In this document: piece after piece, positions 3,639 through 22,561 of the stretch
How the letters are laid out: each line of letters begins with the position of its first letter
Position numbering within the stretch: position 1 is the first letter of the stretch
Virus record (IMG/VR): IMGVR_UViG_3300027763_000239
Span: 1-23,945 of that record
Length of the DNA: 23,945 nucleotides
From: a virus
Strand: one strand, 5' to 3'
The notes under the pieces: generated by a model
The model's input: the letters and a program-made list of their open reading frames with translations, nothing else
The model's database searches: none
Told to the model about the DNA's origin: nothing
Position numbers and translations under genes: made by a program

Positions 3639-4811
3639 TTAACACTTAATACTACCACCACGTTTTTTCTGTGGTGGAGAAACTGTTATTGATTCCTTGC
3701 TCTTAGTAACACTGCCTGCAGGTTTAGTTTCACCCATACCCATCAGCTTTTTTGCACCTTGGTATATATTGGAAGGGATATTTCTAAGGTACTTAGCCAT
3801 ATCCATATCTTCGTTATATGTACCATTGAGAGTTCTGTCAAAAGCACCTTTAGATAAATCATTTACTGGAGGCTTTGAGACAGCACTGCCTTCTTCACCA
3901 TTAAACTTCATGACCTTGCCACCCTTTTTAAAGGTGCCAGATAATTGGTTTATGTGAACTGGCTTAGATGCAGGCTTGTTACCTTGAGGCATTGCCACAG
4001 CAGAACCAGTGTTATTAACACTGCCCCCCATGGCGAAGTGCTTTTTTGAAGCACCACCTTTCTTGTACCCACCACCATTGGACTCTTTAACAGCACCAGT
4101 TGTTGTGTTGGTCACGCCCTTAGGAGTTCCCACAACATTGTCAACAGCGTACTTATCTACTCCACCACCAGTGTTATATTTGGCTTTTCCACCCTTTTTA
4201 AAACCACCTGCGTTGGACATTCTTACGCCACCAGTACCATGTGCAGAGTCAGGCTTGGCTTGATCAACCTTGGTATTGACGTAGTCACCAGAAGAAGTCT
4301 CTGAGTTAATAGAGCCACCCTTCTTGTAACCACCTCCATTGCCTTCCTTGACAGAACCAGTACCATGAGCACTGTCTTTCTTAGAGGTATGAACCATAGT
4401 CGTATCACCTGACGCTTGTCCACCTGACTTTAGACCCTTGTGAGCCTTACTAGCCTTCATGGATTCATGGTGCTTGAGTTCTTTCTCAACCTTGCCCATT
4501 TCTGCCATTTCTTCCTTGTGAACTTTTGAAGACTCCATCTCTCCACCCTTTTTCATCATAGGTGTAGGCATAGCAGGAGGCATGGCTGTCATAGCCTTAC
4601 GCCTCATAGCCATTGGAGGACGCTTAGGAGCCATAGCCATCATAGCAGGAGGCATTCCACGAGCCATCATTGGCCCAGTCATACCCCCATCCATCATCTT
4701 ATGACCATGTTCTTCCTTCTTCTTCATGGAGACGTGACCACCTTTTTTGAGCTTCAGTTCAACTGAAGGCTCAGTGGTCTCCATTTTTACCATTGGTTTA
4801 AATTGACCCAT
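3639..4811 (-). CDS. KGG-repeat protein, 390 aa, with Met/Pro-rich N-terminal region
   Basis: I do not recognise a named family. The protein has nine Gly-Gly motifs, mostly KKGG followed by a small or hydrophobic residue: residues 22-25, 87-90, 128-131, 163-166, 205-208, 250-253, 260-263, 295-298 and 383-386. Residues 39-92 are extremely rich in Met and Pro, with about 17 Met in 54 residues. Residues 142-298 hold about four degenerate units of the type SAHGTGxVxxxNxGGxKKGG. Residues 345-357 (IPSNIYQGAKKLM) resemble LPSRMYEGAKQLV in the 1987-aa protein. The only cysteine is the last residue (GGSIKC). AGGAGG five bases before the ATG predicts strong translation. It lies after the capsid genes. 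A virion role, perhaps inside the head, is inference. Confidence 0.85.
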   Translation of the reverse strand: MGQFKPMVKMETTEPSVELKLKKGGHVSMKKKEEHGHKMMDGGMTGPMMARGMPPAMMAMAPKRPPMAMRRKAMTAMPPAMPTPMMKKGGEMESSKVHKEEMAEMGKVEKELKHHESMKASKAHKGLKSGGQASGDTTMVHTSKKDSAHGTGSVKEGNGGGYKKGGSINSETSSGDYVNTKVDQAKPDSAHGTGGVRMSNAGGFKKGGKAKYNTGGGVDKYAVDNVVGTPKGVTNTTTGAVKESNGGGYKKGGASKKHFAMGGSVNNTGSAVAMPQGNKPASKPVHINQLSGTFKKGGKVMKFNGEEGSAVSKPPVNDLSKGAFDRTLNGTYNEDMDMAKYLRNIPSNIYQGAKKLMGMGETKPAGSVTKSKESITVSPPQKKRGGSIKC

Positions 4812-7967: not shown

Positions 7968-8918
7968 TTAGTTAGTGTTGTTTCTAGCTTCTTGGGCATA
8001 TCGCTTGATCATCTTGGCTCTCTTCTGAGGATCATCCCAGAAACCTGCATCTTTCATCGCTCGAACCTGTTCAGGTCTTAGCGTGATTTGAGTTCGGTTA
8101 GAAGAACCATTAACAGTCTCACGTCCAGTGCCAGTTTGAACACTCCTTGGTCTCTTAACAGACGGTCTCACGTCCATATCGTCATTGTATCTAGGGTTCA
8201 TACGCTTTGACAAGCGATTGTCCAACTCTTCCCAATATTCTGAGTCAGCAGGATTCCAACCCTCTTTGACGAGGTCTTCGTCAATTACTTTGGCGATTCT
8301 TGAATCAGTATCCCCACCATTGGGGTTATACCAAGAATTCCTCTCCATCCAGTCAGAAGCGTGTCTCTGTACTTTAGGATCAGGAATGTTGTTAGTTTGC
8401 TGTGGCCTGACCTGAGCATCTTTAAAGCCTTTTAGGTCTCTAATGGCTGTCCTAGTCTCGTCCCACATTTCTTGGGCTTTATTGAAGGCATCCCCATCGC
8501 TTACTTGCATAGCCTCAGACATCTTCATCTTGGCATACTGCAATCTAAGCTCTTGGTCTTCAATAGCCTTGTCTATACGAGCTAAATCTGCACTGTGGGT
8601 CTTGTGCTCCACCACTGCTAGACGCTCCATAAGAGCCTCGTTTTGTCTTCTAAGAAGGCTTAGTTGGGCTTCCTTCTCACTTGAAGTGGCCTTGGCTATC
8701 TCCTTCTTGTACCTACGCTTGGCTCGTCTAGCATCACGAATAGCTTGGGTGTCATCAGGATGGTCTTCTCCACCATCATCAGGAACTGCTCCACCCTCAG
8801 CCTTTTGCTCTTGCTGTTCTTCCTCAGGCACTAAATCCTCAGGAAGATCGACTACTGCTGAACCATCAACCTCTTCTTTTACGTTAATGTCTAGCTTTTC
8901 TGTTGTTTCTGTGCTCAT
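7968..8918 (-). CDS. Probable capsid scaffolding protein, 316 aa
   Basis: It has the usual layout of a phage scaffold. An acidic N-terminus (residues 1-57) comes first. A long charged coiled coil (about 58-165, with SLLRRQNEALMERLAVVEHK) follows. A low-complexity linker comes next, and then a basic helical C-terminus (RPEQVRAMKDAGFWDDPQKR, residues 282-301). Scaffolds often bind coat protein through such a C-terminal helix pair. The gene is between portal and capsid, the expected place. Residues 18-28 (DGSAVVDLPED) nearly match residues 24-34 of the portal. The start overlaps the previous stop as ATGA. The call is from architecture and position, not from a family signature. Confidence 0.75.
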   Translation of the reverse strand: MSTETTEKLDINVKEEVDGSAVVDLPEDLVPEEEQQEQKAEGGAVPDDGGEDHPDDTQAIRDARRAKRRYKKEIAKATSSEKEAQLSLLRRQNEALMERLAVVEHKTHSADLARIDKAIEDQELRLQYAKMKMSEAMQVSDGDAFNKAQEMWDETRTAIRDLKGFKDAQVRPQQTNNIPDPKVQRHASDWMERNSWYNPNGGDTDSRIAKVIDEDLVKEGWNPADSEYWEELDNRLSKRMNPRYNDDMDVRPSVKRPRSVQTGTGRETVNGSSNRTQITLRPEQVRAMKDAGFWDDPQKRAKMIKRYAQEARNNTN

Positions 8919-9346
8919 ATGAACGCCCTCATTGCTAGTGGATCACAAGTTACTTTGGCAATGACTTCATGGTCATTGAGGATCATAAACAAGGCTTTGT
9001 CCTCGTCTTGCTCACCCTCAACTTCAACTTCCCACCTGTCACCACCCCATTTAGGGACACGAATGTAGTCTCCAACCTCGCACCATGAGCCTTCAGGCCA
9101 ACCTTGCATAGTGTCTCGGTTTTTGAATGCCAGAGGGCCAATGTGGATGACCTTAGCTACCATGTTTTGCCACTTTTCAGTCTCTTTGGTCTCTGAAACC
9201 AAAATGATCCCTGCACTAGTCGTTCTCGTCTTAGTCCTTCTGAGTTGAACTAAGATTCTTCCACCTAATGGCTTCGCTCCGGGATCTACAACTGGAAAGG
9301 CCCAATTTATCTCAGCTTCGCTAGAAGCTACCGTGCTATCGCTCAT
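8915..9346 (-). CDS. GroES-like co-chaperonin, 143 aa
   Basis: The sequence fits the GroES fold in order. A first strand (PLGGRILVQLRR, residues 26-37) is followed by a mobile-loop segment (RTTSAGIILVSE, 41-52). A strand (MVAKVIHIGP, 62-71) comes next, then a turn leading to EVGDYIRVPKWGGD (90-103), and a closing strand pair (ALFMILNDHEVIAKV, 118-132). In GroES the mobile loop carries a hydrophobic tripeptide that binds GroEL; here GIIL at 46-49 takes its place. It probably caps host GroEL to fold phage proteins such as capsid, as T4 gp31 does. At 143 residues it is longer than typical bacterial GroES, with extra N-terminal and 72-88 segments. It overlaps both neighbours by 11 and 4 bases. 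Confidence 0.82.
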   Translation of the reverse strand: MSDSTVASSEAEINWAFPVVDPGAKPLGGRILVQLRRTKTRTTSAGIILVSETKETEKWQNMVAKVIHIGPLAFKNRDTMQGWPEGSWCEVGDYIRVPKWGGDRWEVEVEGEQDEDKALFMILNDHEVIAKVTCDPLAMRAFI

Positions 9347-9530: not shown

Positions 9531-9683
9531 TTATTTTTTCTTTGCTTGTGCTAGTCCTCCTTGTGGTTTAGCAGGCTTTGAATCGCCCTTGCCCTTTAAA
9601 GATGTGCCATCAAGTTTCTCGCCCATAGCCATACGCTTGTGTTGACGAACTAATTCGCCTTTTTGCTCTGCATCGTTAGACAT
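9531..9683 (-). CDS. Small basic 50-aa protein following the portal gene
   Basis: A short open frame, ATG at 9683 to TAA at 9531, begins MSNDAEQKGELVRQHKRMAM and ends PAKPQGGLAQAKKK. It is very Lys-rich and has no cysteine. AGGAGG five bases before the ATG, inside the end of the portal gene, is a strong start signal. The gene overlaps the portal stop by 8 bases and is followed directly by the next ATG, so it fills what would otherwise be a 145-base gap. The PQGGL segment is only loosely like the KGG motif. Function unknown; a small virion or DNA-contact protein is possible. Confidence 0.75.
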   Translation of the reverse strand: MSNDAEQKGELVRQHKRMAMGEKLDGTSLKGKGDSKPAKPQGGLAQAKKK

Positions 9684-12234
9684 TTTGTCCTCCTAGAAAG
9701 TTCTGAGCTTGGTTTTCAAGTCCCAGTGCAGTTTTTGCCTGCTCGTGTTGCAATTTGCCCCCCTCATGGGTCAATTTTGCAGATTCAATACGTTCTTTGG
9801 TGAGGTTATCCTCAGCACTCATAGCTAAATCCATCTGTTTTTCAGCCATAAACTTGTCAGCATCAGCTTTAAGCTTGGCTTGAGCCAAAGATTGGTCTGA
9901 CTGAAGCCTTGCTTGAGCCATTTGTGCGTCAATTTGGTCTTTTTGTGCTCTACGCTGTGTTTCAGCCATAGAAGTCTGTACCAAAGCCTGTGCATCAGCA
10001 TCCATTGGTGGTTGTGCTTGCTGTTTCAACTGCTGTATTTGTTGCATTATCTGTTGGAAGATGGGCATAACATGGGCAAAGGTCTGCTCAGAGTCTTGTT
10101 GGACGTGTTGAGAGGCCAATGCATACAGTTTGTCAGCCTTGGGAGTGACCTTAGGATCATCGTAGTCCACTTCTTTGCCTCTCAAGGCCTTCTCAACGTA
10201 CTCATTCATCCTAGACTGGTACCACATACCAAAGTGCTCTTGCATATGGGTAACCATAGGCTGTATCAAAGCAGGCATGATCAAGGGATTGGCACCACCA
10301 AACACTGGGTTTTGGTAGAAATCTAAGTGACTCTGGATGTGAGCTAAGTGATCTTGCTCCTCATATGCTTTTGCAGGATGACCAGTCATCATCAAGACGT
10401 TCTCTTGTGAGCTATTGATCATGTCCTCTACAGGCTCCATGACCATTAACTCATTGATCTGAGGTATCTTCATTTGCTTCAAGAATCTCTCAAGCACAGC
10501 CTTTTGGTTGAATGCTTGGGGATACTGAGCCATGATAGACATCACAGCCTGAGTCTGAGCCATTCTCTGGGTTTCTGAGAATATGTGAGGGTCAGAGACT
10601 GGTATAACGTCAGTGTTACGCTTGAAGTCATCTCTGTGGATGTCCAAGTCAGCGACCATCTCGCCTCGTCTTTGGTCATCTAGATACCATCTGTTCAGTC
10701 TACCTAATACCTTTAGGACACGAGCCTGTGACTCATGTAGTCTGGCATGGATAGCTGAGTAGACATGGGCACCCTGTTCAATAAGGGCTTGGGCAGTACC
10801 TACAGGCATATTGTTGGTAGCGTCTGCAATCTTCTCTTCTGAGGTGGACACCACCCCTTTAGCCGCATTTGTGAGCCAACCCAACAACTCCATCAGCACT
10901 GGGCTAGGAGGGTTAAAGGGCATGGGCATGGCTATCTTGCGTACATCGTCAACGCCGGGTGCCCCCTCGATCTCAGCCACTTGAGTGACCTCCACCTGTT
11001 GTGTCTGCCCAGACATCCTAGCACCCTTGATTTTCAACATCGTTGCTGAGTTGTTGATATGTGCAGAGTCTAGGAGGGCACGAAGGGAGCCTGTTAGAGC
11101 CGCAGACAAGCCCCCAATCAGATGGGGTAGTCCAATAGCATAGGCACCACGCCAAGGTATAAACTTAAACTCTACAAGCCAATCCAACTTGGTCATTGTC
11201 TCATCACCCTCTTCCCAGTTACGATAGAGGCCAACACATTTTTGATCTAACTCGTCCACCATCATGATGTAGGGTGCAGTCTCGCCATCAGAACGCTTGT
11301 CCTCATCTAGCTCTAACCATGTGTAGATGTGGAAGACGTTCCTAACTCCATCCTCATTGTCTTGGAACTTCTTACCTTCGATCTTGGTGTTGGCCTTCTC
11401 AGCGTAGCTCATCTCAGGCTCTGCAGAAGCTCTGATCAAGCTAATGTCTCTATAAAGACCTGAATCTACCCTGCGTTGGAACTCCCAAGAGGTAATGGTA
11501 TTGACCTCTGTTATCCTTTGGGCTGTGTAGAAGTTGCCTGAGGCATAAGGTAGGTAGATGTTATCTATAGGCACAAACTCTGTACAGGGACGTTTTTTGC
11601 CTTCGTCGTACCACATTTTGAGGTACTGTGAACCACCAAGAGGAAGTTGGGTCAGTAACTGCTCTTGTTCGTCCCTGAACTCTTCGATCTGCTCTGTTAA
11701 CTGCCAGTTCATGTAGTCACGCTTACGCTCTGCTACTTCAACTTTCTTCTTGTCAACGTCACCAATAATCTTTGTTCTAGTTGGGCCATCTGGTGGGAAC
11801 ATCTCCTTGATGGCTCTGGAGGCAAAGTCCACACAAGCTTCAGCCATAATGGGATGGACAACCTTGGAGGCTCCTAGGAAGTTAGCCCCTCCGGGGGCAT
11901 CTTTACCCAGTCCAGTCCTTTTCAACCCCTCTTCGTATTGTTTGTCTCGCTCCTCACGACTCTGCTTGTCGTTCTCTACGAGGTCTATGTAACGCATGGC
12001 TATACGGTTTAATTCATAGGGGTCAAACTCCTCAGCCAAGTTCTGGTAGAAGTCCTCATCCTCTTCAGGGCCTTGGTAGTCATCAGTGGTGATGATTGCA
12101 GAGCCATCAGGCAGTTCCTCGATGTCCATCTCCTCTTCAGGAAGGTCAACAGTGACGCTACCATCCTCTGCAGGCTCAGACACTCCATCAACAAAGCGTT
12201 GAAAGTCTTGTTCAATTGGCATTTCAGTAGCCAT
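9676..12234 (-). CDS. Portal protein, 852 aa
   Basis: The portal forms the DNA gate at one head vertex and docks terminase and adaptor. Segments typical of portals of short-tailed phages appear in order. These include KVVHPIMAEACVDFASRAIK (residues 124-143), an LPLGGSQYLKMWYD stretch (197-210), EFVPIDNIYLPYASGNFYTA (219-238) and a central helical core with GVVSTSEEKIADATNNMPVG. The C-terminal 160 residues are Gln- and Ala-rich coiled coil, as in the barrel of P22-type portals. The first 70 residues are very acidic, with two DGS motifs at 24-26 and 43-45; DGSVTVDLPEE closely matches the scaffold N-terminus. At 852 residues it is long for the family. AAGGA precedes the ATG, and the gene begins two bases after the 959-aa gene ends. 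Confidence 0.88.
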   Translation of the reverse strand: MATEMPIEQDFQRFVDGVSEPAEDGSVTVDLPEEEMDIEELPDGSAIITTDDYQGPEEDEDFYQNLAEEFDPYELNRIAMRYIDLVENDKQSREERDKQYEEGLKRTGLGKDAPGGANFLGASKVVHPIMAEACVDFASRAIKEMFPPDGPTRTKIIGDVDKKKVEVAERKRDYMNWQLTEQIEEFRDEQEQLLTQLPLGGSQYLKMWYDEGKKRPCTEFVPIDNIYLPYASGNFYTAQRITEVNTITSWEFQRRVDSGLYRDISLIRASAEPEMSYAEKANTKIEGKKFQDNEDGVRNVFHIYTWLELDEDKRSDGETAPYIMMVDELDQKCVGLYRNWEEGDETMTKLDWLVEFKFIPWRGAYAIGLPHLIGGLSAALTGSLRALLDSAHINNSATMLKIKGARMSGQTQQVEVTQVAEIEGAPGVDDVRKIAMPMPFNPPSPVLMELLGWLTNAAKGVVSTSEEKIADATNNMPVGTAQALIEQGAHVYSAIHARLHESQARVLKVLGRLNRWYLDDQRRGEMVADLDIHRDDFKRNTDVIPVSDPHIFSETQRMAQTQAVMSIMAQYPQAFNQKAVLERFLKQMKIPQINELMVMEPVEDMINSSQENVLMMTGHPAKAYEEQDHLAHIQSHLDFYQNPVFGGANPLIMPALIQPMVTHMQEHFGMWYQSRMNEYVEKALRGKEVDYDDPKVTPKADKLYALASQHVQQDSEQTFAHVMPIFQQIMQQIQQLKQQAQPPMDADAQALVQTSMAETQRRAQKDQIDAQMAQARLQSDQSLAQAKLKADADKFMAEKQMDLAMSAEDNLTKERIESAKLTHEGGKLQHEQAKTALGLENQAQNFLGGQNV
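9689..9694 (-). promoter_or_regulatory. Strong ribosome binding site deciding the start of the 50-aa gene
   Basis: AGGAGG on the minus strand lies five bases before the ATG at 9683 and inside the last codons of the portal gene. It is the main evidence that the short frame is translated. Confidence 0.75.
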
Positions 12235-12236
12235 AG

Positions 12237-15116
12237 TTATTTCCTTTTAATCCAAGTATCTGGAGTCATATGGTGCTTTGCAACAAAGTCATCATGTAAT
12301 TTCTGGGGAGGTATCTTATGCTCTTTAGATATGTGAGCCATAAGCTTGTCTATAGAGTGGTAGTCAGTCTTGGTCAAGGCAGGTAGGTTAGTCTCTAGGT
12401 TTTGTACAGCACCACCACTTGCCATCTTTCTAATAGCTCCACCTTTGGCTTTGCTAAGTTTTACGCCTTCTACATCTGAACCTTTAGGAGCGACTAATAG
12501 TTTTTCGTAGACATCATGCACTGGACTATTTTTGTTTATTTGCATTTGGCCTACAACATCACCAACACCAAATACATCACCCACGCTTCTAGGACGCAAA
12601 GTAGGGTTAGACCCTGTGCCAAGGTTATTCAATAGCACTGGAGAGGCATAATCAGTTCCTAAGCCATAGGCATGGCCCATTCCTGCTTTGTCTACAGTTG
12701 CAATAAATCCAAGTTCATTCAGAATTGAATCTCCTCCTGTTGGTTTGTATTTGCCTTGCTTGAGTAAATTGGAATTGGTGAATGAGCCTTGGTCTCTAGG
12801 CAAAGATTCCATGCCAGTAACTCCACCACTGGTCATTACTGGTCTATTAGTAATAGGATTAATAGCAACGCCGACATCATTGTGAATTTGATTGTCCAAT
12901 ATCAAACCAGTTTTGGGATCAACAAATGCACCTGAATGAAAGTCTTCACGTTTCATGTTGTTAACTTGGAGTACTTTTTCAACTAATGGCTGTACATGAG
13001 GATTTTCTTTGGGCTTAGTAAACCACCTATTGGGCATAGGTATTACAGATTGACGATTAGGAGTTTGAACTTTGTCAATTAGTCCAGACAATTCAGGTGC
13101 CTCAGCCTTATACAATCCACGAACCGTATGAGCAAGCTCAGGTGTTTCAGCCAATAGTTTAGTGATTTCTGCTTTAGTTAAAGGAGGTGCTCTATCAAAC
13201 TTTGTTGGTATTCCTTTAGTGGCACCCATCATGCCAACCCCTGCAGGGTTGAAGGCCATAGCCAACTCTTCAGCAGTAGGAGCTTTCATGTCAGCAAAGT
13301 AAGCCCTTGGATCTGTTACCAGTTGTTTAGCACCCTCATACATCTTTGAGGGAAAATTAGCTATAGCCTTTAAGTTAGCTGTCAAATCTTCTATGGGCGT
13401 AAATGGCTCTGTAGGTTTGTTGGCTTGTGCTTTGAGCCATTGGCTAGGCGTGAGCTTGGTATCGTCTTCAGCACCACCACCTTTCATTTTTTTGTCTGCC
13501 AGTTCCATAAACATGGTGTCAGGGTTATTACTGATAGACACACTTCCACCACGTTTCATCTCTGGCTCAGGTTGTGCTAAGTTGACTGCCTCTGCACCTC
13601 CTAACGGTATACCAATCTGTTGGTAAAGAGGTAAGCCTTTCTGGGTGACTTCGTTCTTGAGTGAGGGTGTAAGGTCAAACGTGTGCAGACTTGGAGAGGT
13701 TTTTTGTGTCCAATCTGATGTAATTTTTTGTTGTTGCTCAACAGGCAGAGCTTTAAACATTTCTGGCGTTAAATCAGCATGGTCAAGCATATTGTTAAAT
13801 TCGCTTGCTAACTGTGGGCTAGAAGGCATACCATGCATTTTAACTTGAGCACCATGAGGACTGCCTAGCTTGTTCAGGTAATCAGGCAACATCTTGTCGT
13901 AGAAGCCCTTCATGCCTTCGCCACCAACTTCAAGGTTTTGTCCTGTTAAAGATCGCAATGTTCCTTGTGGCTGTTGTGCAAGCAATTTTTCTGTTGCTTC
14001 TTTTCCTATCAATTCAGGCAAATCTTCAGGCCAAATACCAGTGCGTTTTATTACTTCTTTTCCATTATGGTCATATGCTACTAAGTTGGTACCAGACAAG
14101 TGCAACTCATTAATGTGTTTAGCCAAACTGTAACGCTTTGCTTGCTCGGATCCGGGCGTTATGGCTAACCTGTCATACCCATTCTCAGTAGCGTAGTTGA
14201 TCAGTTTCTTGAGTGCTACCTCGTGCCAGTTCTTTTTGAATGGAGCGTCAGGAACTAAGTTTGTGTCGTGGATTGTGCCAAACCCATAAGGATTTGTTTC
14301 AGTTCTTTCTGTTTTTTTATATGGTGGTTTGTACCCATGTTCACGTCCCTTTTGGTGCCAATCAGACTGTAGTTCCTCAAGGTGCAATACCTTCTCACCA
14401 TTGGGGCCTGATCTGTCAGATACCCTCATGTGAGCTAAGATGTTTGGCTCTGAAAAATGGCCTGAAGTAAATTCATCGCCTTCACCTTTAGGTAACTTTA
14501 ATAGAATTTCACGATAGTTTTGACCATTAGGTAATGCATATTCACCATACCTAGTATTGTCTTCAAGAACACCGTTTAACCTTTGTTGTCTGTCATACAG
14601 AACTTCCATCTCATCAGATAATTGATTAAATAATCTTTTTTGACCATTGGCTTTGGCCTCTAACATTCTTGCATTAACATCATTAACTGTTTGGGAAAGA
14701 CTATGATTGGTAGACTTTTCGCTTCTATTAAGCAAATCAACCATGTAGTTGTATTGATAAGGATCAAGTTCACCACTATTGTGCGCTTCAATCATCTCTT
14801 TCAAATGTTTGGATTCTGTTGGATACAACTCTCTATGTTCACCAGAACCAAGTATCTTTTCTTCAATAGAAGGGTTAGCTTTGGACTGGATAGCCTTAAC
14901 AATCTCTTCTTTGTTGACCTTAGGCATATTGGCTAGAACCTTGTCTATGCCACGCTCTTTGATCTCTGTAGGCTTAACACCCTTGGTCTTTTCTATTTCC
15001 CTTAGGAACTCAGCACCAGTGCCCTTAGGACGTGCCAGAGCCTCTACAGCCTCGTCTAAGGTAGAACGCAATGGTTTAGCCTTGGCTCCCTTAGCTAGTA
15101 GTCCTAGTACGCTCAT
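12237..15116 (-). CDS. Large polyvalent-like protein, 959 aa, with KGG cassette
   Basis: This is a multidomain protein. Residues about 200-430 carry a pattern I know from very large phage proteins: LEELQSDWHQKGREHGY (W253, H254), VPDAPFKKNW (288-297), NGYDRLAITPGSEQAKRY and GGEGMKGFYDKMLPDYLNKL (398-417). Its activity is unknown to me. Residues 520-624 form a cassette that matches residues 1466-1570 of the preceding 1987-aa protein, 93 of 105 by eye. A unique region follows (DNQIHNDVGVAINPITNRPV, then DKAGMGHAYGLGTDY). Two further Gly-Gly motifs lie at 892-893 and 901-902, ahead of a small helical C-terminal domain that ends in KRK. The start overlaps the previous stop as ATGA. A virion-borne or host-delivered role is inference from its kind and place. 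Confidence 0.8.
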   Translation of the reverse strand: MSVLGLLAKGAKAKPLRSTLDEAVEALARPKGTGAEFLREIEKTKGVKPTEIKERGIDKVLANMPKVNKEEIVKAIQSKANPSIEEKILGSGEHRELYPTESKHLKEMIEAHNSGELDPYQYNYMVDLLNRSEKSTNHSLSQTVNDVNARMLEAKANGQKRLFNQLSDEMEVLYDRQQRLNGVLEDNTRYGEYALPNGQNYREILLKLPKGEGDEFTSGHFSEPNILAHMRVSDRSGPNGEKVLHLEELQSDWHQKGREHGYKPPYKKTERTETNPYGFGTIHDTNLVPDAPFKKNWHEVALKKLINYATENGYDRLAITPGSEQAKRYSLAKHINELHLSGTNLVAYDHNGKEVIKRTGIWPEDLPELIGKEATEKLLAQQPQGTLRSLTGQNLEVGGEGMKGFYDKMLPDYLNKLGSPHGAQVKMHGMPSSPQLASEFNNMLDHADLTPEMFKALPVEQQQKITSDWTQKTSPSLHTFDLTPSLKNEVTQKGLPLYQQIGIPLGGAEAVNLAQPEPEMKRGGSVSISNNPDTMFMELADKKMKGGGAEDDTKLTPSQWLKAQANKPTEPFTPIEDLTANLKAIANFPSKMYEGAKQLVTDPRAYFADMKAPTAEELAMAFNPAGVGMMGATKGIPTKFDRAPPLTKAEITKLLAETPELAHTVRGLYKAEAPELSGLIDKVQTPNRQSVIPMPNRWFTKPKENPHVQPLVEKVLQVNNMKREDFHSGAFVDPKTGLILDNQIHNDVGVAINPITNRPVMTSGGVTGMESLPRDQGSFTNSNLLKQGKYKPTGGDSILNELGFIATVDKAGMGHAYGLGTDYASPVLLNNLGTGSNPTLRPRSVGDVFGVGDVVGQMQINKNSPVHDVYEKLLVAPKGSDVEGVKLSKAKGGAIRKMASGGAVQNLETNLPALTKTDYHSIDKLMAHISKEHKIPPQKLHDDFVAKHHMTPDTWIKRK
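13245..13559 (-). repeat. Cassette copy 1 (in the 959-aa gene), direct repeat of 16367-16681
   Basis: This encodes 105 residues from MKRGGSVSISNN to AMAFNP. It is the same length as the copy at 16367-16681 and about 89 percent identical in protein by eye (93 of 105), with clear nucleotide similarity along its whole length. It starts with the KGG motif and contains LTPSQWL and PSKMYEGAKQLV. Confidence 0.9.
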
Positions 15117-18100
15117 AGTGGTCTAACCTCCATTTGGATGTCATCTTCGCTAATCTCACCACCTTTGGCCTTCTTGATAGTTCCACCATTAGCTTTTTTC
15201 TTAGGTTTATCGTAACCAAGATATTCACGAAGTCTTGCAATATCTTCTGCTGTCATTAGTTGACCATGATGGCTTTTAAGTAAAGATGATCTTACATTTC
15301 CTATTGTCTTGCCTTGAGCTAATCTTTCATCAAACAATTTTTTTAATAAAACAGTATCTGGAACGCCAACAATATTGTTATTAACATCAGCCAGACCTCC
15401 TGCATAAGTGGCACCCATTCCAGTATTGTAAGAACCATGTTCAAAATTTGGAGTAACAATTTGAGTATTTGGTTTAACTTCTAAGATTGTTTTAGCTGAC
15501 TGACCTGTTTTAGCATCAGGCATACTCATTGTTTTATAAATATCAGACCACTTAGGAAATCCAAGTTTTTCCATGGCATAGGTATCTCCCACTTCTGCTA
15601 TGGCTTTTCTAATATTTCCTGCACTGTAATCGTCTGTTCCATTGGCTATGATGTCACGAATATTAGGGCTATCAATGCCGGGGAATTTTGTATAAGGATA
15701 TACTTTTGCACCAGTAATTGGATTTATAACTGGCGTTTTTCTAATTGCTTCTTTAAATGCTTTTAGGGCATCATTGGATGGCCTCAGAGCGTTTAACATA
15801 CCTATATAAGGCTCTGCTATATGGTGAGAGAAATCAATCCCATGTTCAGCCATATCCATAACAACGCCTACAGTTGGCCCTTTGCTAGAATAAGTATTTA
15901 AGTTATTAACTTTGCTAGAGGCCGCACCTGCCATCGAAGCCCCTCCTACACCTTGCTGTGCATTTTCTTCAATCAGTGGGTATAACCTACCACCTTGTTT
16001 TTGAACAGAAGCAGGTGTTGAGCTTCGCAATCCTTGACTTAATGGAACTCCTGCAATTTGTGAAACATTTGTACCTGCACCTGACGTATCCCATAGAATT
16101 GGAACTACATATTTATTTTCCAAGTAATCAGGGTTTAAACCTTTTTCAGGTCTCATTTTAAGCGATGGTGTTTCAATATCGCCAGTACCTGTAGTTCTAA
16201 ATAATTCCCTACGCATAACTGCAGGAACATCTAAGTCTTTTTTGTATTTAGTTAGTGCAGTTTTCTCAGCAGAGGTAAGCATACTTTCTGTTTTGTTGGG
16301 GAACAAAGCATCAATAGCATTTAATTTCCCCACTTTTGTAGCCATGCCTGCCAAACCAACACTAGATGGATTAAACGCCATTGCCAGTTCTTCAGCAGTA
16401 GGTGCCTTCATGTCAGCAAAGTAAACCCTAGGATCTGTTACCAACTGTTTGGCACCCTCATACATTCTTGAGGGAAGATTGGCTATAGCCTTCAAGTTAG
16501 CTGTTAGATCCTCTATTGGCGTAAATGGCTCTATTGGCTTATTGCCTTGTGCTTGTAACCATTGGCTAGGAGTGAGCTTGGTATTGTCCTCAGCACCACC
16601 ACCCTTCATCTTCTTATCCATTAACTCCATGAACATAGTGTCAGGGTTGTCAGATATGGTGACTGCTCCACCTTTTTTCATGCCTTCTACTGGAGGTAAA
16701 TTTTTTCCTACATTGTTCATGGCATCAGAAGACATCTTGATAGCTTCCTCCATGGTTACATATTTAGGTATTTCTACTCCTTGATCTTTAAGGGCTTGTA
16801 AAGCCTCCTCACCAAAAGCTTCATCTGAGTGACGCAAACCAGTATGACGCAAATCACCTACATCACTCCAGTTGCCTGACTTTACAAAGTCTTGAACGAA
16901 AGGTAAGTATTGTTCTTTAGGTGCAAGGTTTTGTTTGCCTTTGATTTGAATGATATTAGAAGGGGGAGAACCATATTTTTCTGTATATGCTTCATTTATT
17001 CTTTGAAAATATGGGTGTTTATCATAATTTGCTAAGTCATTTAAAGCATCTTTTAAATCTGGTTCTTGTCCACCATAATGTTGAGCAACTACTTGATTAT
17101 GTAATTCTTGTTTTTGCTCATTACTAAGATTTGCATGACTTCCTAATGCTCTAGATGGTTCAACCTCAACCGTCACATGAGGCTCACCCTTTTTGTCTCT
17201 CAAACTAAATATGCGTGAGCGTCCTTCTAGTACGTCAGGGCAGTAGCCACCAACGCAATGACCCATGGTATCGCCTTCGTATTTAAGAGCCTCAGCAAGA
17301 TACTTTGATGCATCAGCCTTTTGTCCTGCCTTCAAAGCATATGCCTCGTTACCACCTGATTTCATGTAATCAAAGTAAGCTTGTAACCCAAGGTCACCTA
17401 AGTCTTCTTTTGATTTGACTTCTCTCGGAGCTAACTCAATCCACTTGTATCCTTCAGGATACTCTTTGTGGACAGGCATACCCTCAGTAACTTTGAACTG
17501 GGCTTCTGCCATTTTCTTAGCCATCTCTTGGTCATACTCATAGGTTCTGCGTACAGCCTGTTCCATGCTCACATTTTTTAAGCTTTCAGGGCGTATACGA
17601 CCATTTTCTAAGTCTTGCTTGAGAACATCCATGATGTGTGTAAAACCAAGGTCTGATGGATTAAGGGTTGACCCCCTTGTGGTATACAAAAGTGTCTCTG
17701 GAGATAATTTTTTTATCCAATCTTCTGAGCTTGTATATAAACTTGGATCGAGGTGCATCATGTCTTGATGTTGTTGTGCAGTCTCAACATTAATAGCCGA
17801 ATCTGTTCGATTTTCCCACTGTTTGGCAAGGTCAGACTGTGACAATTGTTTGCCACCAAAAGCTTCCCTAGACTGATCTCCCTTACGTTGCCAGTAAGTC
17901 GGATCTTCAGCAATTGGAAAATGTACGACACCTTGTTCAGCCAATTTACGCACTGGGTCTTCAGGCGTTGCCATTTCCTTTTTGACGTAGTTGGTTAGGT
18001 TCTTGTCTACCCACTGATTAAGTGCACCTTTGACTTTGTCTGGCTCTATGTTTTCTTCAAGAATTTTAGCAACACGCAAAGCACCCTCATTACCATGCTC

Positions 18101-21076
18101 TTTCAATTCTTTGATTCGAGCTTCTCTAGCTTTTTCAAATTCTGGGCCATGGTAATATTTGATGTTATTTAAAAGATCGGATTGCTTTAATCCTTTTAAT
18201 TTATTTTCAACCTCATTTGCAAACCAGTTTCCACCCTTGAGCTTGATAGCTCCAACCTGTGAGGCCAATGTTTGTGGCCCTGAGCCAGAGGGGGCTAATT
18301 GACCAAGACCCTCACCTGCTATTTTGCCTAAACCCTTTAAACCCTGTAACTGGGCTTTGATCATGGCTGTACTAGGAAAGAACGATCCTGCCTCACCAGA
18401 TAGCTTTCCTACAGGTGATGTGGCCTTCAGTGGCAGTGTTTCTAAATAATGCTCAGTCCCATAAGGAACTTTATAGTCTGTGCCTTTAATGGCGTTTACT
18501 ACAGCTAAAGGAATGTTAGCCATGTCAGGTATAAAGCCAAGCGTTCCTGCTAATCGTCCACGCAAAGCCTGAAGGGGCATATCTTTAGATGCCTCAGGGT
18601 CTTGGTTTTCTCTGTATGGCTTGAGTTGTGGGAAGACACCAAAGGAGGCTTTTGTATCGTCCTCAGCACCACCACCTTTCATTTTTTTGTCCATCAATTC
18701 CATATACATAGAATCTGGATTGTTAGAAATGTGGACTGCTCCTCCTTTTTTCATTCCTTCAATTGGAGGAATTGGTGCTTGAAGTTGGTTTAATAAGTCA
18801 TCAGTTACTTCACCATATGTTGGTGTGCCATGCTTACGAATTGCTGACTCGTATTCATTTCTAGTAATGTAGCCAGACTGTAACTCGCCTGCATCCATGG
18901 CTTTTAAAATAGCTTCTTCTCTTTGTGGTCGTTTCAAATGTTGAATGTCCATAGCTTCTGGCATATATGCTGATATTTGTCCCAAAAAGTCCTTGTCGAG
19001 TTTGTATAAACCAGTATTCTTTAAATCACCTACATCAGTCCAATTTCCTGACTTTACAAAATCTTGGACATAAGGAATGTAGCTATCTACTATCTTCCCA
19101 TTACCTTTGCCTTTTATTTGGGTAATAGTAGGCGATGCTGAATTTAACTCTTTAAGTTTTTGTGCAACATACTCATTAACACCAGTTTCACCATTATTTT
19201 TCATGGCATTGAGAACGCCACTTGGAAATTGCAAACCTATATCGTCTTCAGTGTATACTTTTGGGGATTTTATCTCAACCGTTGTATGTGGATTACCTTT
19301 AGGGTCAACCAATGAGTAGACCTTGGCCTTGCCACTCTTAATAGCCTCCCAACCACCATGACCATAGCCAAGACTGCCCGAATCACCAGAACCCTCAACC
19401 CAGTCAGGATGGCCTTTAGGTGGCTCGTACCCCCTAACGGAGTGACCCATGGCGTTTGACTCTGCTGAGAATTGGCTTGGCTTGTCTAACTGCACCCATC
19501 TCATACCCTCAGGATATTCTTTGTGAACAGTCATGCCTTCAAGCTTCTTGGCTTGAGCCTCTTGCATCTGCTTGGCTAATGCTAAATCATAGTCAGCAGT
19601 CTTACGAACTGCTTGCTCCATGCTGATGTTCTTTAAGTCTTCAGGCTTCAATCGTCCACTTGCCAAGTCTTCTTTAAGTACATCTATGATGTGGTCAAAA
19701 CCAAGGTCACCTGTTTGGGCTGAATAAATATTAGTGTCAGGTGCAAGCTTGTTTATGTATTGGTTATTTTCTAACCGTTTTAAGTTGTAATCGTCATGAG
19801 AAGACCTAAAGCTATGTGTTTTTTCCAATGATTTTGAGAAAGTATCATCACCAATCAATCGTTCTTTTTCATCGTATGCCATTCCCCTTACCAAATTTTT
19901 TATTTGCTGTTCATTTAAATTAGCAGGACTATCTTTTAAATATTGTACGACTTTTGCATTTAAATTATTTTCAGCTTGCATTCTTTTTGCATCAGCTAAA
20001 TCTGCTTGAGCAAGCTTTTCAGGAAGTTCTTGCAAACTGCTTGCTTTTTTAGGATAAATAGAATTGTCTGCAGTCATTTCATATGCTTTGGCCTCATTAG
20101 ACTTTCCCATGCCTTCAGCAGAAAACCCTTGTTCCTTTCGCCTTTCCCCTAATGTTTTTATATCTTCAGGAGTAAGGTAGTCTGGATCGTGAGGCAAGTG
20201 AGAAGAGTGTTTAATACCTAACTCTAAATTATTATTGGCCTCAGCAGTTAATCTATTGGCTTCACGCTGTAAGTTTGCTTGTTTTCTAGGATCTGTTTCT
20301 TCTTTGGCTCTTTGGGCGAATTTGTTAGCCCTAGCCATATCTACTTTGAATTTCTCATTTGCTTCAGCAACACGACTATCTATTGCTAAACGAACTGGGT
20401 CTTCAGGAGTTCCCAATTCTTTCTTAACGTAGTTGGTCAAGTTCTTATCTACCCAACTGTTTAAGGCATCGTTACGAGCAAAGCGACCTGATTCTGTCAT
20501 TTGTTGTGCTTGTTCTGGCGTGTAATGCTCTATGTTTTCAGTCGCAACCTTACTCCTCAAACGCTTCAACTTATCTTCAACCTCGTCTTTAAACCAATTG
20601 CCACCCTTAGGCTTCATTACATTGGTTTGGGGGATGGCTGTATTGACAAAGGGAGTGAAGGACTCGCCCATCACTGCTCGTCTGCCTGCCTCCTCACCCA
20701 AAGCCTTAGCTCCTTTAGCTCCTAGCTTGACAGCACCTTTGAGGGCTTGGCCTGACATAGGTGTAGGGATGAAGTTACCCATGGTCTCTCCAACCTCTGC
20801 AGTGTGTTGGCGTGACTTGTCATCAGTAGGGATAACGTCAGGGAGCATCTTAGAGATGTCCTCAGAGCCATAAGGAGCAGTAGGTAACTGGCCTCTAAAG
20901 GAAACTTGGTTCAGTAGGTTATATATATCAGCAGGTGCTCCTACTGTTGCAGTGACAGAACCCTTCAATCCACCTGCCAAAGCATCTAAAAGGGCTTGTG
21001 CAGGGACACCAAGGCTCTTGGCATCTTTAATGATTTGGTCAAACGATAAAGGCTGTTGAGCACGAGGATTGGGCAT
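15113..21076 (-). CDS. Giant polyvalent-like protein, 1987 aa, with two PcfJ-like modules
   Basis: Residues 1-157 are largely helical with a Gly/Ala-rich stretch. Residues 158-781 and 948-1472 are two copies of one module. Each contains the PcfJ-like pattern: a GHC motif, a strand pair of the form SLRxxxGxPHVTVE, and QIKGKxN. PcfJ was named for a protein of a conjugative plasmid, and its biochemical role is not known to me. Copy A has Ser (S546) where copy B has Cys (C1274). Residues 1466-1570 are the cassette shared with the 959-aa protein. Residues 1571-1960 are unique (VVPILWDTSGAGTNVSQIAG, then DMAEHGIDFSHHIAEPYIG). The C-terminus carries two more motifs, NGGTI and KGGEI. GAGG before the ATG supports the start. 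The place between terminase and portal fits virion cargo (inference). Confidence 0.82.
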   Translation of the reverse strand: MPNPRAQQPLSFDQIIKDAKSLGVPAQALLDALAGGLKGSVTATVGAPADIYNLLNQVSFRGQLPTAPYGSEDISKMLPDVIPTDDKSRQHTAEVGETMGNFIPTPMSGQALKGAVKLGAKGAKALGEEAGRRAVMGESFTPFVNTAIPQTNVMKPKGGNWFKDEVEDKLKRLRSKVATENIEHYTPEQAQQMTESGRFARNDALNSWVDKNLTNYVKKELGTPEDPVRLAIDSRVAEANEKFKVDMARANKFAQRAKEETDPRKQANLQREANRLTAEANNNLELGIKHSSHLPHDPDYLTPEDIKTLGERRKEQGFSAEGMGKSNEAKAYEMTADNSIYPKKASSLQELPEKLAQADLADAKRMQAENNLNAKVVQYLKDSPANLNEQQIKNLVRGMAYDEKERLIGDDTFSKSLEKTHSFRSSHDDYNLKRLENNQYINKLAPDTNIYSAQTGDLGFDHIIDVLKEDLASGRLKPEDLKNISMEQAVRKTADYDLALAKQMQEAQAKKLEGMTVHKEYPEGMRWVQLDKPSQFSAESNAMGHSVRGYEPPKGHPDWVEGSGDSGSLGYGHGGWEAIKSGKAKVYSLVDPKGNPHTTVEIKSPKVYTEDDIGLQFPSGVLNAMKNNGETGVNEYVAQKLKELNSASPTITQIKGKGNGKIVDSYIPYVQDFVKSGNWTDVGDLKNTGLYKLDKDFLGQISAYMPEAMDIQHLKRPQREEAILKAMDAGELQSGYITRNEYESAIRKHGTPTYGEVTDDLLNQLQAPIPPIEGMKKGGAVHISNNPDSMYMELMDKKMKGGGAEDDTKASFGVFPQLKPYRENQDPEASKDMPLQALRGRLAGTLGFIPDMANIPLAVVNAIKGTDYKVPYGTEHYLETLPLKATSPVGKLSGEAGSFFPSTAMIKAQLQGLKGLGKIAGEGLGQLAPSGSGPQTLASQVGAIKLKGGNWFANEVENKLKGLKQSDLLNNIKYYHGPEFEKAREARIKELKEHGNEGALRVAKILEENIEPDKVKGALNQWVDKNLTNYVKKEMATPEDPVRKLAEQGVVHFPIAEDPTYWQRKGDQSREAFGGKQLSQSDLAKQWENRTDSAINVETAQQHQDMMHLDPSLYTSSEDWIKKLSPETLLYTTRGSTLNPSDLGFTHIMDVLKQDLENGRIRPESLKNVSMEQAVRRTYEYDQEMAKKMAEAQFKVTEGMPVHKEYPEGYKWIELAPREVKSKEDLGDLGLQAYFDYMKSGGNEAYALKAGQKADASKYLAEALKYEGDTMGHCVGGYCPDVLEGRSRIFSLRDKKGEPHVTVEVEPSRALGSHANLSNEQKQELHNQVVAQHYGGQEPDLKDALNDLANYDKHPYFQRINEAYTEKYGSPPSNIIQIKGKQNLAPKEQYLPFVQDFVKSGNWSDVGDLRHTGLRHSDEAFGEEALQALKDQGVEIPKYVTMEEAIKMSSDAMNNVGKNLPPVEGMKKGGAVTISDNPDTMFMELMDKKMKGGGAEDNTKLTPSQWLQAQGNKPIEPFTPIEDLTANLKAIANLPSRMYEGAKQLVTDPRVYFADMKAPTAEELAMAFNPSSVGLAGMATKVGKLNAIDALFPNKTESMLTSAEKTALTKYKKDLDVPAVMRRELFRTTGTGDIETPSLKMRPEKGLNPDYLENKYVVPILWDTSGAGTNVSQIAGVPLSQGLRSSTPASVQKQGGRLYPLIEENAQQGVGGASMAGAASSKVNNLNTYSSKGPTVGVVMDMAEHGIDFSHHIAEPYIGMLNALRPSNDALKAFKEAIRKTPVINPITGAKVYPYTKFPGIDSPNIRDIIANGTDDYSAGNIRKAIAEVGDTYAMEKLGFPKWSDIYKTMSMPDAKTGQSAKTILEVKPNTQIVTPNFEHGSYNTGMGATYAGGLADVNNNIVGVPDTVLLKKLFDERLAQGKTIGNVRSSLLKSHHGQLMTAEDIARLREYLGYDKPKKKANGGTIKKAKGGEISEDDIQMEVRPL
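16367..16681 (-). repeat. Cassette copy 2 (in the 1987-aa gene)
   Basis: This encodes residues 1466-1570 of the 1987-aa protein, from MKKGGAVTISDN to AMAFNP. It lies about 3.1 kb from copy 1 in the same orientation, so recombination between the two could delete or duplicate the DNA between them. Confidence 0.9.
16661..18235 (-). repeat. Module B of the tandem PcfJ-like duplication
   Basis: Residues 948-1472 of the 1987-aa protein. Landmarks are GGNWF (948), QWVDKNLTNYVKKE (W1022), MGHCVGGY (1271-1278), IFSLRDKKGEPHVTVEV, IQIKGKQN (from Q1377), FVKSGNWSDVGDL (W1403) and KKGGAV. Module B is shorter before the GHC motif than module A. Confidence 0.85.
18650..18754 (-). repeat. Cassette copy 3, partial (first 35 residues only)
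   Basis: This encodes residues 775-809 of the 1987-aa protein, MKKGGAVHISNN through GGGAEDDTK. It matches the start of copies 1 and 2 and then diverges into a different sequence. Confidence 0.85.
18734..20605 (-). repeat. Module A of the tandem PcfJ-like duplication
   Basis: Residues 158-781 of the 1987-aa protein. Landmarks in order are GGNWF (158), SWVDKNLTNYVKKE (W208), MGHSVRGY (543-550), VYSLVDPKGNPHTTVEI, TQIKGKGN (from Q653), FVKSGNWTDVGDL (W679) and KKGGAV (776-781). The same landmarks recur in the same order in module B. Confidence 0.85.
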
Positions 21077-21136: not shown

Positions 21137-22561
21137 TTATTGAGCATAAGGATTGCCTTTGCTCTTGTTCATACCTGAGTCCACATAATCGTCTTCATCA
21201 TAATCATCTGGCCTTGGGCCATCGACATCCAACCATCCAGTGTCCCTCAGGAACCTCAGGGCTTGGGTCATGGCATCCACATAGTCATCGTGAGCACTCT
21301 CAGGAAAAGCACAGACTTGGCTGACCATGCCTTCAGCCCAATCTTTGACAAATCCCTTGTTCTTACCTGACTCAGGTATCCAGACTCGCCCATGGACAAT
21401 GACAGGGCTGACCACATTGAGTCTTTGGACTTTGTCGATGCGACCCGGGTTATAGGCCCTCACAGGCAAGTGTGCTCTCTGGAGGTCTTGGATCAACTGA
21501 ATGCCTGCTGACTTGTCCTCCACCAGTATCAAGTCCACCCTCTTCTTGTCCTTCCCCTCCCCAAAGACCACCTCGTACTCCTCCTTGACCTTAGGACGTA
21601 AGTCAGGGTACTGGAGCCTATCTTGCCAACAATCGATCACCATGGCACTCATTGGGCCATCAGTAGGTTTAAACACTCCAAAGGTTATACAAGCAGTGGC
21701 ATCGTTCTGAGTCTTCTCTGAGGTTGCACAGTCGTAGCTTTGGACAATGTACTCAAACTTGGGGAAAGCCCTACCATTAGGCCAGAGCTTGAACATCGAG
21801 CGTTTGATGATGCCAGTGTCCTCAGGATCGAGTATCTCAGCATAGATCTCTTGCTTTCCTAATTTGGTGCCTTCGTATTGTAAGATTTGCTTCTTAAAGC
21901 TTGGGGCTAAGTTAGCTAAGTTAGTGTAAGTCGAGGCTGTGGTCACCACAACGTCATCCCCATCCCTGCCTACCAAATCAACAATAAGGTCTTTTGGTCT
22001 AGGGGTAGTCGTAGCTATGATGCGTGTCCTGTCTCCTAGGCGTACAGAGAACTGGATCTGATCCCAAGCGTCTGTGATGTAGTCCCAAGCCGCCAGTTCA
22101 TCACACCAAGCCCCATGCCACTGACCCCCCCTGAAACGCTCAGGCTCACTAGCAGGGATACCCTTTAGTAAGGAGCCATTGGTCAGGGTAATCTCGTGAA
22201 AGCTCTTGTTGTAGTCTTTGATCAGTTCTTGAGGGATGACGTTGATCAGGCCAGAGTCACCCTCAAACATAGTTCCCCTTACGTCTGAGGAGGTAGGGCC
22301 TGCACAGAGCCATCTAGAGTTAGGTAGCTCCCAAGCCCATCTACCTATGGTCTCTGAGGCTGTTCTGGTCTTCCCTGCACCCCTTCCTGCCAATAGGAGC
22401 CAAATGTTCCACCAGTTCCCTGCAGGCACGATTTGGTGGTCATGGGCGTTCGCTAACCAACTCATATGCCACTTGAAGGCTATCAGATCCTCTGTAGACA
22501 GTCTTTTAAGAGAATCCTGTATCTCAGGGTCTTGCAGTTGTTCAATGATCTCCTCATGCAT
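21137..22561 (-). CDS. terL: Terminase large subunit, 474 aa
   Basis: This is the ATP-driven DNA-packaging motor and nuclease. The ATPase domain has Walker A GRGAGKT at residues 59-65, Walker B AWCDE at 151-155 (D154, E155) and the coupling motif ATTTPRP at 183-189. The nuclease domain shows acidic residues at the expected places: D277 in SYDCATSEKTQNDATA, E348 and D349 in ILVEDKSAG, and D425, D426 and D429 in HDDYVDA. The order, spacing and 474-residue length are normal for the family, and all key residues are present, so it should be active. It starts 8 bases before the small-subunit stop. A 60-base gap follows before the giant gene; I see only a weak 4-bp hairpin in it. Packaging strategy cannot be decided here. 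Confidence 0.96.
   Translation of the reverse strand: MHEEIIEQLQDPEIQDSLKRLSTEDLIAFKWHMSWLANAHDHQIVPAGNWWNIWLLLAGRGAGKTRTASETIGRWAWELPNSRWLCAGPTSSDVRGTMFEGDSGLINVIPQELIKDYNKSFHEITLTNGSLLKGIPASEPERFRGGQWHGAWCDELAAWDYITDAWDQIQFSVRLGDRTRIIATTTPRPKDLIVDLVGRDGDDVVVTTASTYTNLANLAPSFKKQILQYEGTKLGKQEIYAEILDPEDTGIIKRSMFKLWPNGRAFPKFEYIVQSYDCATSEKTQNDATACITFGVFKPTDGPMSAMVIDCWQDRLQYPDLRPKVKEEYEVVFGEGKDKKRVDLILVEDKSAGIQLIQDLQRAHLPVRAYNPGRIDKVQRLNVVSPVIVHGRVWIPESGKNKGFVKDWAEGMVSQVCAFPESAHDDYVDAMTQALRFLRDTGWLDVDGPRPDDYDEDDYVDSGMNKSKGNPYAQ

Follow-up and report, generated by a model that had tools for sequence, protein, structure and literature searches.

Why a single phage gene should encode the same ordered series of protein landmarks twice is the question raised by the giant open reading frame P0001 in the window, an IMG/VR fragment of 23,945 nt. 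The frame is open and complete from an ATG start (1987 aa), its stop overlaps the start of the next ORF, P0002, on the same minus strand, and it is flanked by the genes for the large terminase subunit (TerL) and the portal, indicating a phage with portal-terminase packaging. Modules are referred to below as S-type or C-type according to whether they carry GHS or GHC. The features of the locus are:

21137–22561, minus strand: large terminase subunit TerL, flanking gene (PF03237/PF17289)
15113–21076, minus strand: P0001, giant protein of 1987 aa with an S-type module, a C-type module and a third segment
20606–21076, minus strand: N-terminal region of P0001, aa 1–157, common to the closest relatives up to GGNWF
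18644–20605, minus strand: module 1 (S-type, GHS), aa 158–811, from landmarks, blastp and tree
18977–19570, minus strand: PcfJ-like domain of module 1, aa 503–700, predicted GNAT-like fold (AlphaFold)
19439–19447, minus strand: GHS of module 1, aa 544–546, Ser replacing the Cys of PcfJ
18650–18763, minus strand: KKGG linker 1, aa 772–809, including KKGGAVHISNNPDSMYMELMDKKMKGGGAEDDTK, the C-terminal tail motif of single-module relatives
16571–18643, minus strand: module 2 (C-type, GHC), aa 812–1502, its start matching separate C-type genes (L005, L006, L126)
16781–17482, minus strand: PcfJ domain of module 2, aa 1199–1432 (Pfam match aa 1261–1319), predicted GNAT-like fold
17255–17263, minus strand: GHC of module 2, aa 1272–1274, invariant in 56 aligned C-type relatives
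16577–16690, minus strand: KKGG linker 2, aa 1463–1500, from its motif
15197–16570, minus strand: third segment of P0001, aa 1503–1960, first ~80 aa resembling part of P0002
15116–15196, minus strand: C-terminal tail of P0001, ANGGTIKKAKGGEISEDDIQMEVRPL, where DNA homology to L014/L011 resumes (aa 1963)
12237–15116, minus strand: ORF P0002, 959 aa, with the ELQSDWHQ domain, a third KKGG linker and a KGG tail
13449–13562, minus strand: KKGG linker copy in P0002, aa 519–556, from sequence comparison
9676–12234, minus strand: portal protein, flanking gene (phrog_1216, E 9.5e-19)

The doubling itself, described in the first-pass annotation as the same ordered landmarks twice in one polypeptide, is borne out for all seven landmarks, each of which occurs exactly twice and in identical order in both modules: GGNWF (aa 158 and 948), WVDKNLTNYVKKE (208 and 1022), GHS (544) or GHC (1272), PHxTVE (596 and 1299), QIKGKxN (653 and 1377), FVKSGNWxDVGDL (673 and 1397) and KKGGAV (776 and 1467). 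Aligned by blastp, the modules are 37% identical over 423 columns (E 2e-73), and the two halves reach a Smith-Waterman score of 792, against a mean of 49 and a maximum of 73 in 200 shuffles. Contig L002, which may represent the same virus from the same sample, encodes aa 1–1459 identically. P0001 consists of more than two modules, as a third C-terminal segment (aa ~1503–1960) follows whose first ~80 aa are 86% identical to part of P0002, and the KKGG...NPDxMxMEL linker present twice in P0001 has a third copy in P0002.

Both modules had been proposed to be PcfJ-like, and here the answer differs between them. Module 2 passes the curated cut-off of the Pfam PcfJ family (PF14284; E 4e-8, 33.6 bits against a cut-off of 25), the same model matches all 28 scanned C-type relatives at E ≤ 0.01, and the pattern common to PcfJ proteins at large, EG..[LM]xHCVxxY followed by TxE and QxxGxxN, is retained. 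Module 1 differs from the PcfJ family in having Ser for Cys, an extra glycine-rich segment of ~25 residues and no PF14284 match at E ≤ 1 in the Pfam scan; none of the S-only relatives scanned matches this model either, and the conserved H-C-V core of PcfJ is replaced by HSV in every S-type sequence. In profile-profile comparisons with canonical plasmid and phage PcfJ, the module 2 family scores well (P 98, E 2e-13) and the module 1 family weakly (P 51, E 1.5e-4), so that the PcfJ assignment of module 1 holds solely through its homology to the C-type family (P 100, E 2.5e-62). These comparisons identify module 1 as a sister subtype of PcfJ that the current Pfam model does not recognise. P0001 also departs from the usual proteins of the PcfJ-like family in carrying two modules on one chain. 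Scans of P0001 and P0002 with NCBIfam and PADLOC returned nothing useful, and the portions of the literature on PcfJ that were covered yielded no reported function or activity, most matches being to unrelated pCFJ worm plasmids.

Both subtypes recur widely, with at least 468 viral contigs matched by the module profile search and at least 155 by the S-type search. The non-redundant proteins comprise 54 complete single-C proteins, 45 complete single-S proteins and two in which a single ORF encodes S followed by C, namely that of the window's own virus (found again in L002/L092) and that of L039. The motif MGHSV[RK]GYEP is invariant in 66 of 66 distinct single-S sequences, 45 of them complete single-module proteins, so that the Ser must be maintained by selection and has not decayed. 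Among the 56 aligned relatives of the C-type family, the C, H, Q and N of GHC, PHxTVE and QIKGKxN are likewise invariant. One fully supported branch separates S from C in the domain tree; once the motif columns are left out, four changes are required for the split, and limited mixing of the subtypes by recombination is therefore likely. On this phylogenetic basis the S and C modules are long-diverged, separate clades.

If one PcfJ module had recently been duplicated in tandem at this site, with the first copy now decaying and its Cys changed to Ser, this would account for the near-identical landmark blocks (WVDKNLTNYVKKE is identical, and the blocks are 77–85% identical at the DNA level) and for a module 1 that Pfam no longer recognises. 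Such an origin is largely refuted by the separate S and C clades, and also sits poorly with the invariance of GHS and with a second half that begins like independent C-type genes, and recombination at landmark sites is a better explanation for the likeness of the landmarks; we regard a duplication of this kind as highly improbable. Of the tandemly duplicated modules first described, the homology thus stands and the duplication does not: since the two subtypes split long ago and almost all relatives in the TerL–portal slot have just one of them, P0001 is better read as a fusion of two resident gene types.

Gene boundaries in the relatives are informative about how such a fusion is built. On contig L126 the S gene (805 aa) and the C gene (1413 aa) are adjacent but unfused; their junction corresponds to aa ~804 of P0001 and falls just after the KKGG tail, and the start of module 2 coincides with the start of independent C-type proteins (L005, L006). 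Single-module relatives (e.g. L006) and relatives of P0002 terminate in KKGG-type tails, which, combined with the L126 junction, means that the linkers are best read as former C-termini retained after fusion. These alignments show that in P0001 two complete PcfJ-like gene units of long-separated types, S and C, have been fused, together with a third unit. Neither S/C cassette exchange nor the fused pair was found described in the literature searched. On a further contig (L122, 3517–9566) the ORF after an S-type ORF overlaps it in a different frame and contains the rest of a C-type module; this is either a broken or frameshifted S–C fusion or an assembly error.

Wherever the fetched locus contig was long enough, the gene order was TerS, TerL, the giant PcfJ-like protein, an optional second ORF, portal, GroES-like, scaffold-like and capsid, with the giant protein ranging from 676 to 2500 aa among fetched loci. 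The PcfJ-like protein of phage DSL-LC04 (OR003939; WJZ48068.1, 825 aa) resembles P0001 in its slot between TerL and portal, its module order and its GHC type, but has a single module and lacks the KKGG...NPD tail; the DSL-LC04 genome paper does not mention PcfJ (PMC10611076). The GroES-like gene of the window (8915–9346, minus strand) lies within the head cluster and is kept in relatives, its DSL-LC04 relative being annotated as a co-chaperonin.

Within this conserved order the giant protein is markedly variable. Compared with L023, the TerS, TerL, portal, GroES-like, scaffold-like and capsid proteins are 91–98% identical whereas the giant protein is 47% identical. DNA homology to L023, L021, L014 and L011 ends at aa 161–171 of P0001, just past GGNWF, and returns in the tail of P0001 (aa 1963) in L014/L011 and in the tail of P0002 (aa ~890) in L021/L023, the relatives whose flanking genes are 91–98% identical to those of the window. 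More generally, in 254 of 290 related pairs, which are non-independent, homology is back no more than 250 nt ahead of the portal start (median 67 nt). The break sites of 821 related pairs, again non-independent, fall before the gene start (382), within 20 aa of GGNWF (214), later than GGNWF (154) or earlier in the N-terminal part (71), and a strict rule that exchange always occurs at GGNWF was rejected on these counts. Mapped onto the TerL tree, the proteins switch between S and C 34 times, at least 23 of these switches being forced by supported branches; the total is not much below the mean of ~43 obtained with shuffled labels, and identical TerLs were found with different S/C types. The comparisons show that the TerL–portal locus is a recombination hotspot at which relatives exchange whole modules, often in conserved landmark sequences, and that GGNWF and the KGG tail are among the sites of exchange. 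The P0001 gene therefore has the appearance of an effector locus with rapid exchange, and a simple duplication describes it less well.

The suggestion that the product is a polyvalent protein finds support in its context. Relatives in the same slot carry ART-PolyVal (12 of 28 C-type and 8 of 30 S-type relatives), LPD23 (4 of 28 C-type relatives), PBECR5 and ParB_N, all of which are polyvalent-protein domains in the sense of Iyer et al. (PMC5512222), although the text of that 2017 paper does not mention PcfJ. Like the polyvalent proteins described there, the slot relatives are large multi-domain proteins of terminase-portal phages. P0001 had no ART, PBECR or LPD match in the Pfam scan, its domain content being the two PcfJ-like modules and a third segment without a domain match. 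Very large relatives in L039 and L036 (2451 and 2500 aa) have N-terminal ART-PolyVal domains, and one S-type relative has a PBECR5 nuclease domain. The neighbouring P0002 (12237–15116, minus strand) contains a well conserved ELQSDWHQ...GEGMKGFYD domain with no Pfam family match, a relative of which lies within gp34 of Pelagibacter phage HTVC028P, whose adjoining genes are annotated as internal proteins. The further proposal that P0001 travels with the DNA and acts early in the new host is consistent with its position between TerL and portal, and the slot domains together with the HTVC028P gp34 context favour a delivered effector, supporting it without proving it.

The same position in a head-packaging cluster in nearly all relatives, along with the internal-protein genes beside gp34, could be expected of a core protein inside the head, or of an ejection protein, in which the PcfJ-like modules only shape or anchor the giant chain and catalyse nothing in the host. 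A structural part would not usually diverge so strongly or swap modules while adjacent head genes stay almost identical, however, and toxin-like or enzyme domains (ART-PolyVal, PBECR5, LPD23) occupy the same slot, so we consider this reading unlikely. The probability we attach to P0001 being made and active in the infected cell without being packaged, for example in superinfection exclusion or takeover, is similarly low: the plasmid and large-phage PcfJ proteins examined do lie outside structural clusters, but the shared strand, the overlapping start and stop with P0002 and the common conserved tail point to late co-expression with the head genes.

As to what the modules might do, structure prediction gave confident models for both, module 2 (aa 945–1432, 56 sequences) at pLDDT 90.2 and the module 1 domain (aa 503–700, 57 S-type sequences) at pLDDT 91.1 and pTM 0.85, and the separately predicted models have the same order of structural elements. 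Among the best 50 matches listed by a structural aligner, almost only GNAT acetyltransferases were found for both, HAT1 first, with best Z-scores of 8.3 and 7.9, although a Z near 8 can reflect a common arrangement. Foldseek found no match reaching E 0.001 for either module (best E 0.075–0.094). In the GNAT fold the acetyl-CoA loop, [QR]xxGx[GA], sits between strand 4 and helix 3; in the models the QIKGKxN loop is placed likewise, after strand 4 and before a helix, with the Q and first G invariant and the third position variable (QIKGKQN in most). The modules thus resemble GNAT acetyltransferases (HAT1, RimL and ESCO1 in the PDB) in predicted fold order and in a QxxGxx loop after the fourth strand, but differ in a long insertion between strands 3 and 4 and in Z-scores of only about 8. 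No sequence similarity to GNAT acetyltransferases was found in the PDB chain search, where the module profile gave chance matches only, or in an hhalign comparison of the S-type domain with a single phage GNAT family (P 0.1). On these models we think it somewhat probable that the PcfJ-like modules have a GNAT-type fold, while a GNAT-type activity is put forward tentatively.

The invariant C, H, Q and N of the C-type family occur in the order of the triads of papain- or transglutaminase-like enzymes, and PcfJ might accordingly be a cysteine enzyme that uses the GHC Cys, the PHxTVE His and the Gln/Asn of QIKGKxN, with module 1 an inactive partner and possibly with cutting at the KKGG linkers, a motif class enriched in the PcfJ-like protein family (166 KxGG against 64 expected). 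The His is not conserved across PcfJ at large, the Ser form is strictly conserved and it is acetyltransferases that both models resemble; on these grounds we did not adopt the cysteine-protease reading, which appears quite unlikely.

The reading we prefer is that P0001 would be a variable polyvalent effector that is expressed late alongside the head genes and enters the virion, with the KKGG...NPDTMxxEL tail plausibly serving as a signal for sorting or processing, and that accompanies the DNA on delivery, whereupon its modules may act on host or defence targets. Each module would most likely adopt a divergent GNAT-type fold. Both types keep the same QIKGKxN loop in the predicted position of the acetyl-CoA loop, and the GHS/GHC segment in which they differ would immediately precede strand 2, the site of acceptor binding in GNATs. 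The simplest conjecture from the models is that GHS and GHC correspond to two acceptor specificities, in which case having both in one protein would widen the target range. Taken as a whole, the combination of an S, C and third-unit fusion, an exchange hotspot, a virion-delivered polyvalent effector and a divergent GNAT fold has in our judgement an even chance of being correct. The broader generalisation, that PcfJ domains are divergent GNAT-type acyltransferases whose GHC and GHS acceptor classes are swapped as virion-delivered effector cassettes and sometimes fused, is rather doubtful at this stage.

What is new here is a protein that joins two alternative subtypes drawn from a recombination hotspot, together with a proposal for the fold of the PcfJ family that can be tested; that proposal and the two strictly conserved putative active-site variants make the family directly accessible to experiment. 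Module exchange is seen unusually clearly at this locus, next to head genes that are otherwise almost identical, as would be expected if host defences or competing phages exert pressure on the gene, and the group concerned comprises at least 468 uncultivated phage contigs.

KGG-type sequences also occur elsewhere in the window. An idea that KxGG is avoided in head proteins as a protease site was dropped: portal, TerL and capsid contain none, but family members are non-independent and such zeros mean little. The last ~60–70 residues of P0002 (12240–12450, minus strand) are similar to portions of unrelated proteins from cyanophages that carry tail fibre and phrog_10346 annotations, and resemble a mobile tail. 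A 390-aa protein (3639–4811, minus strand) has about eight KKGG-type repeats, which its relatives keep (80 KxGG in 14 proteins against 11 expected).
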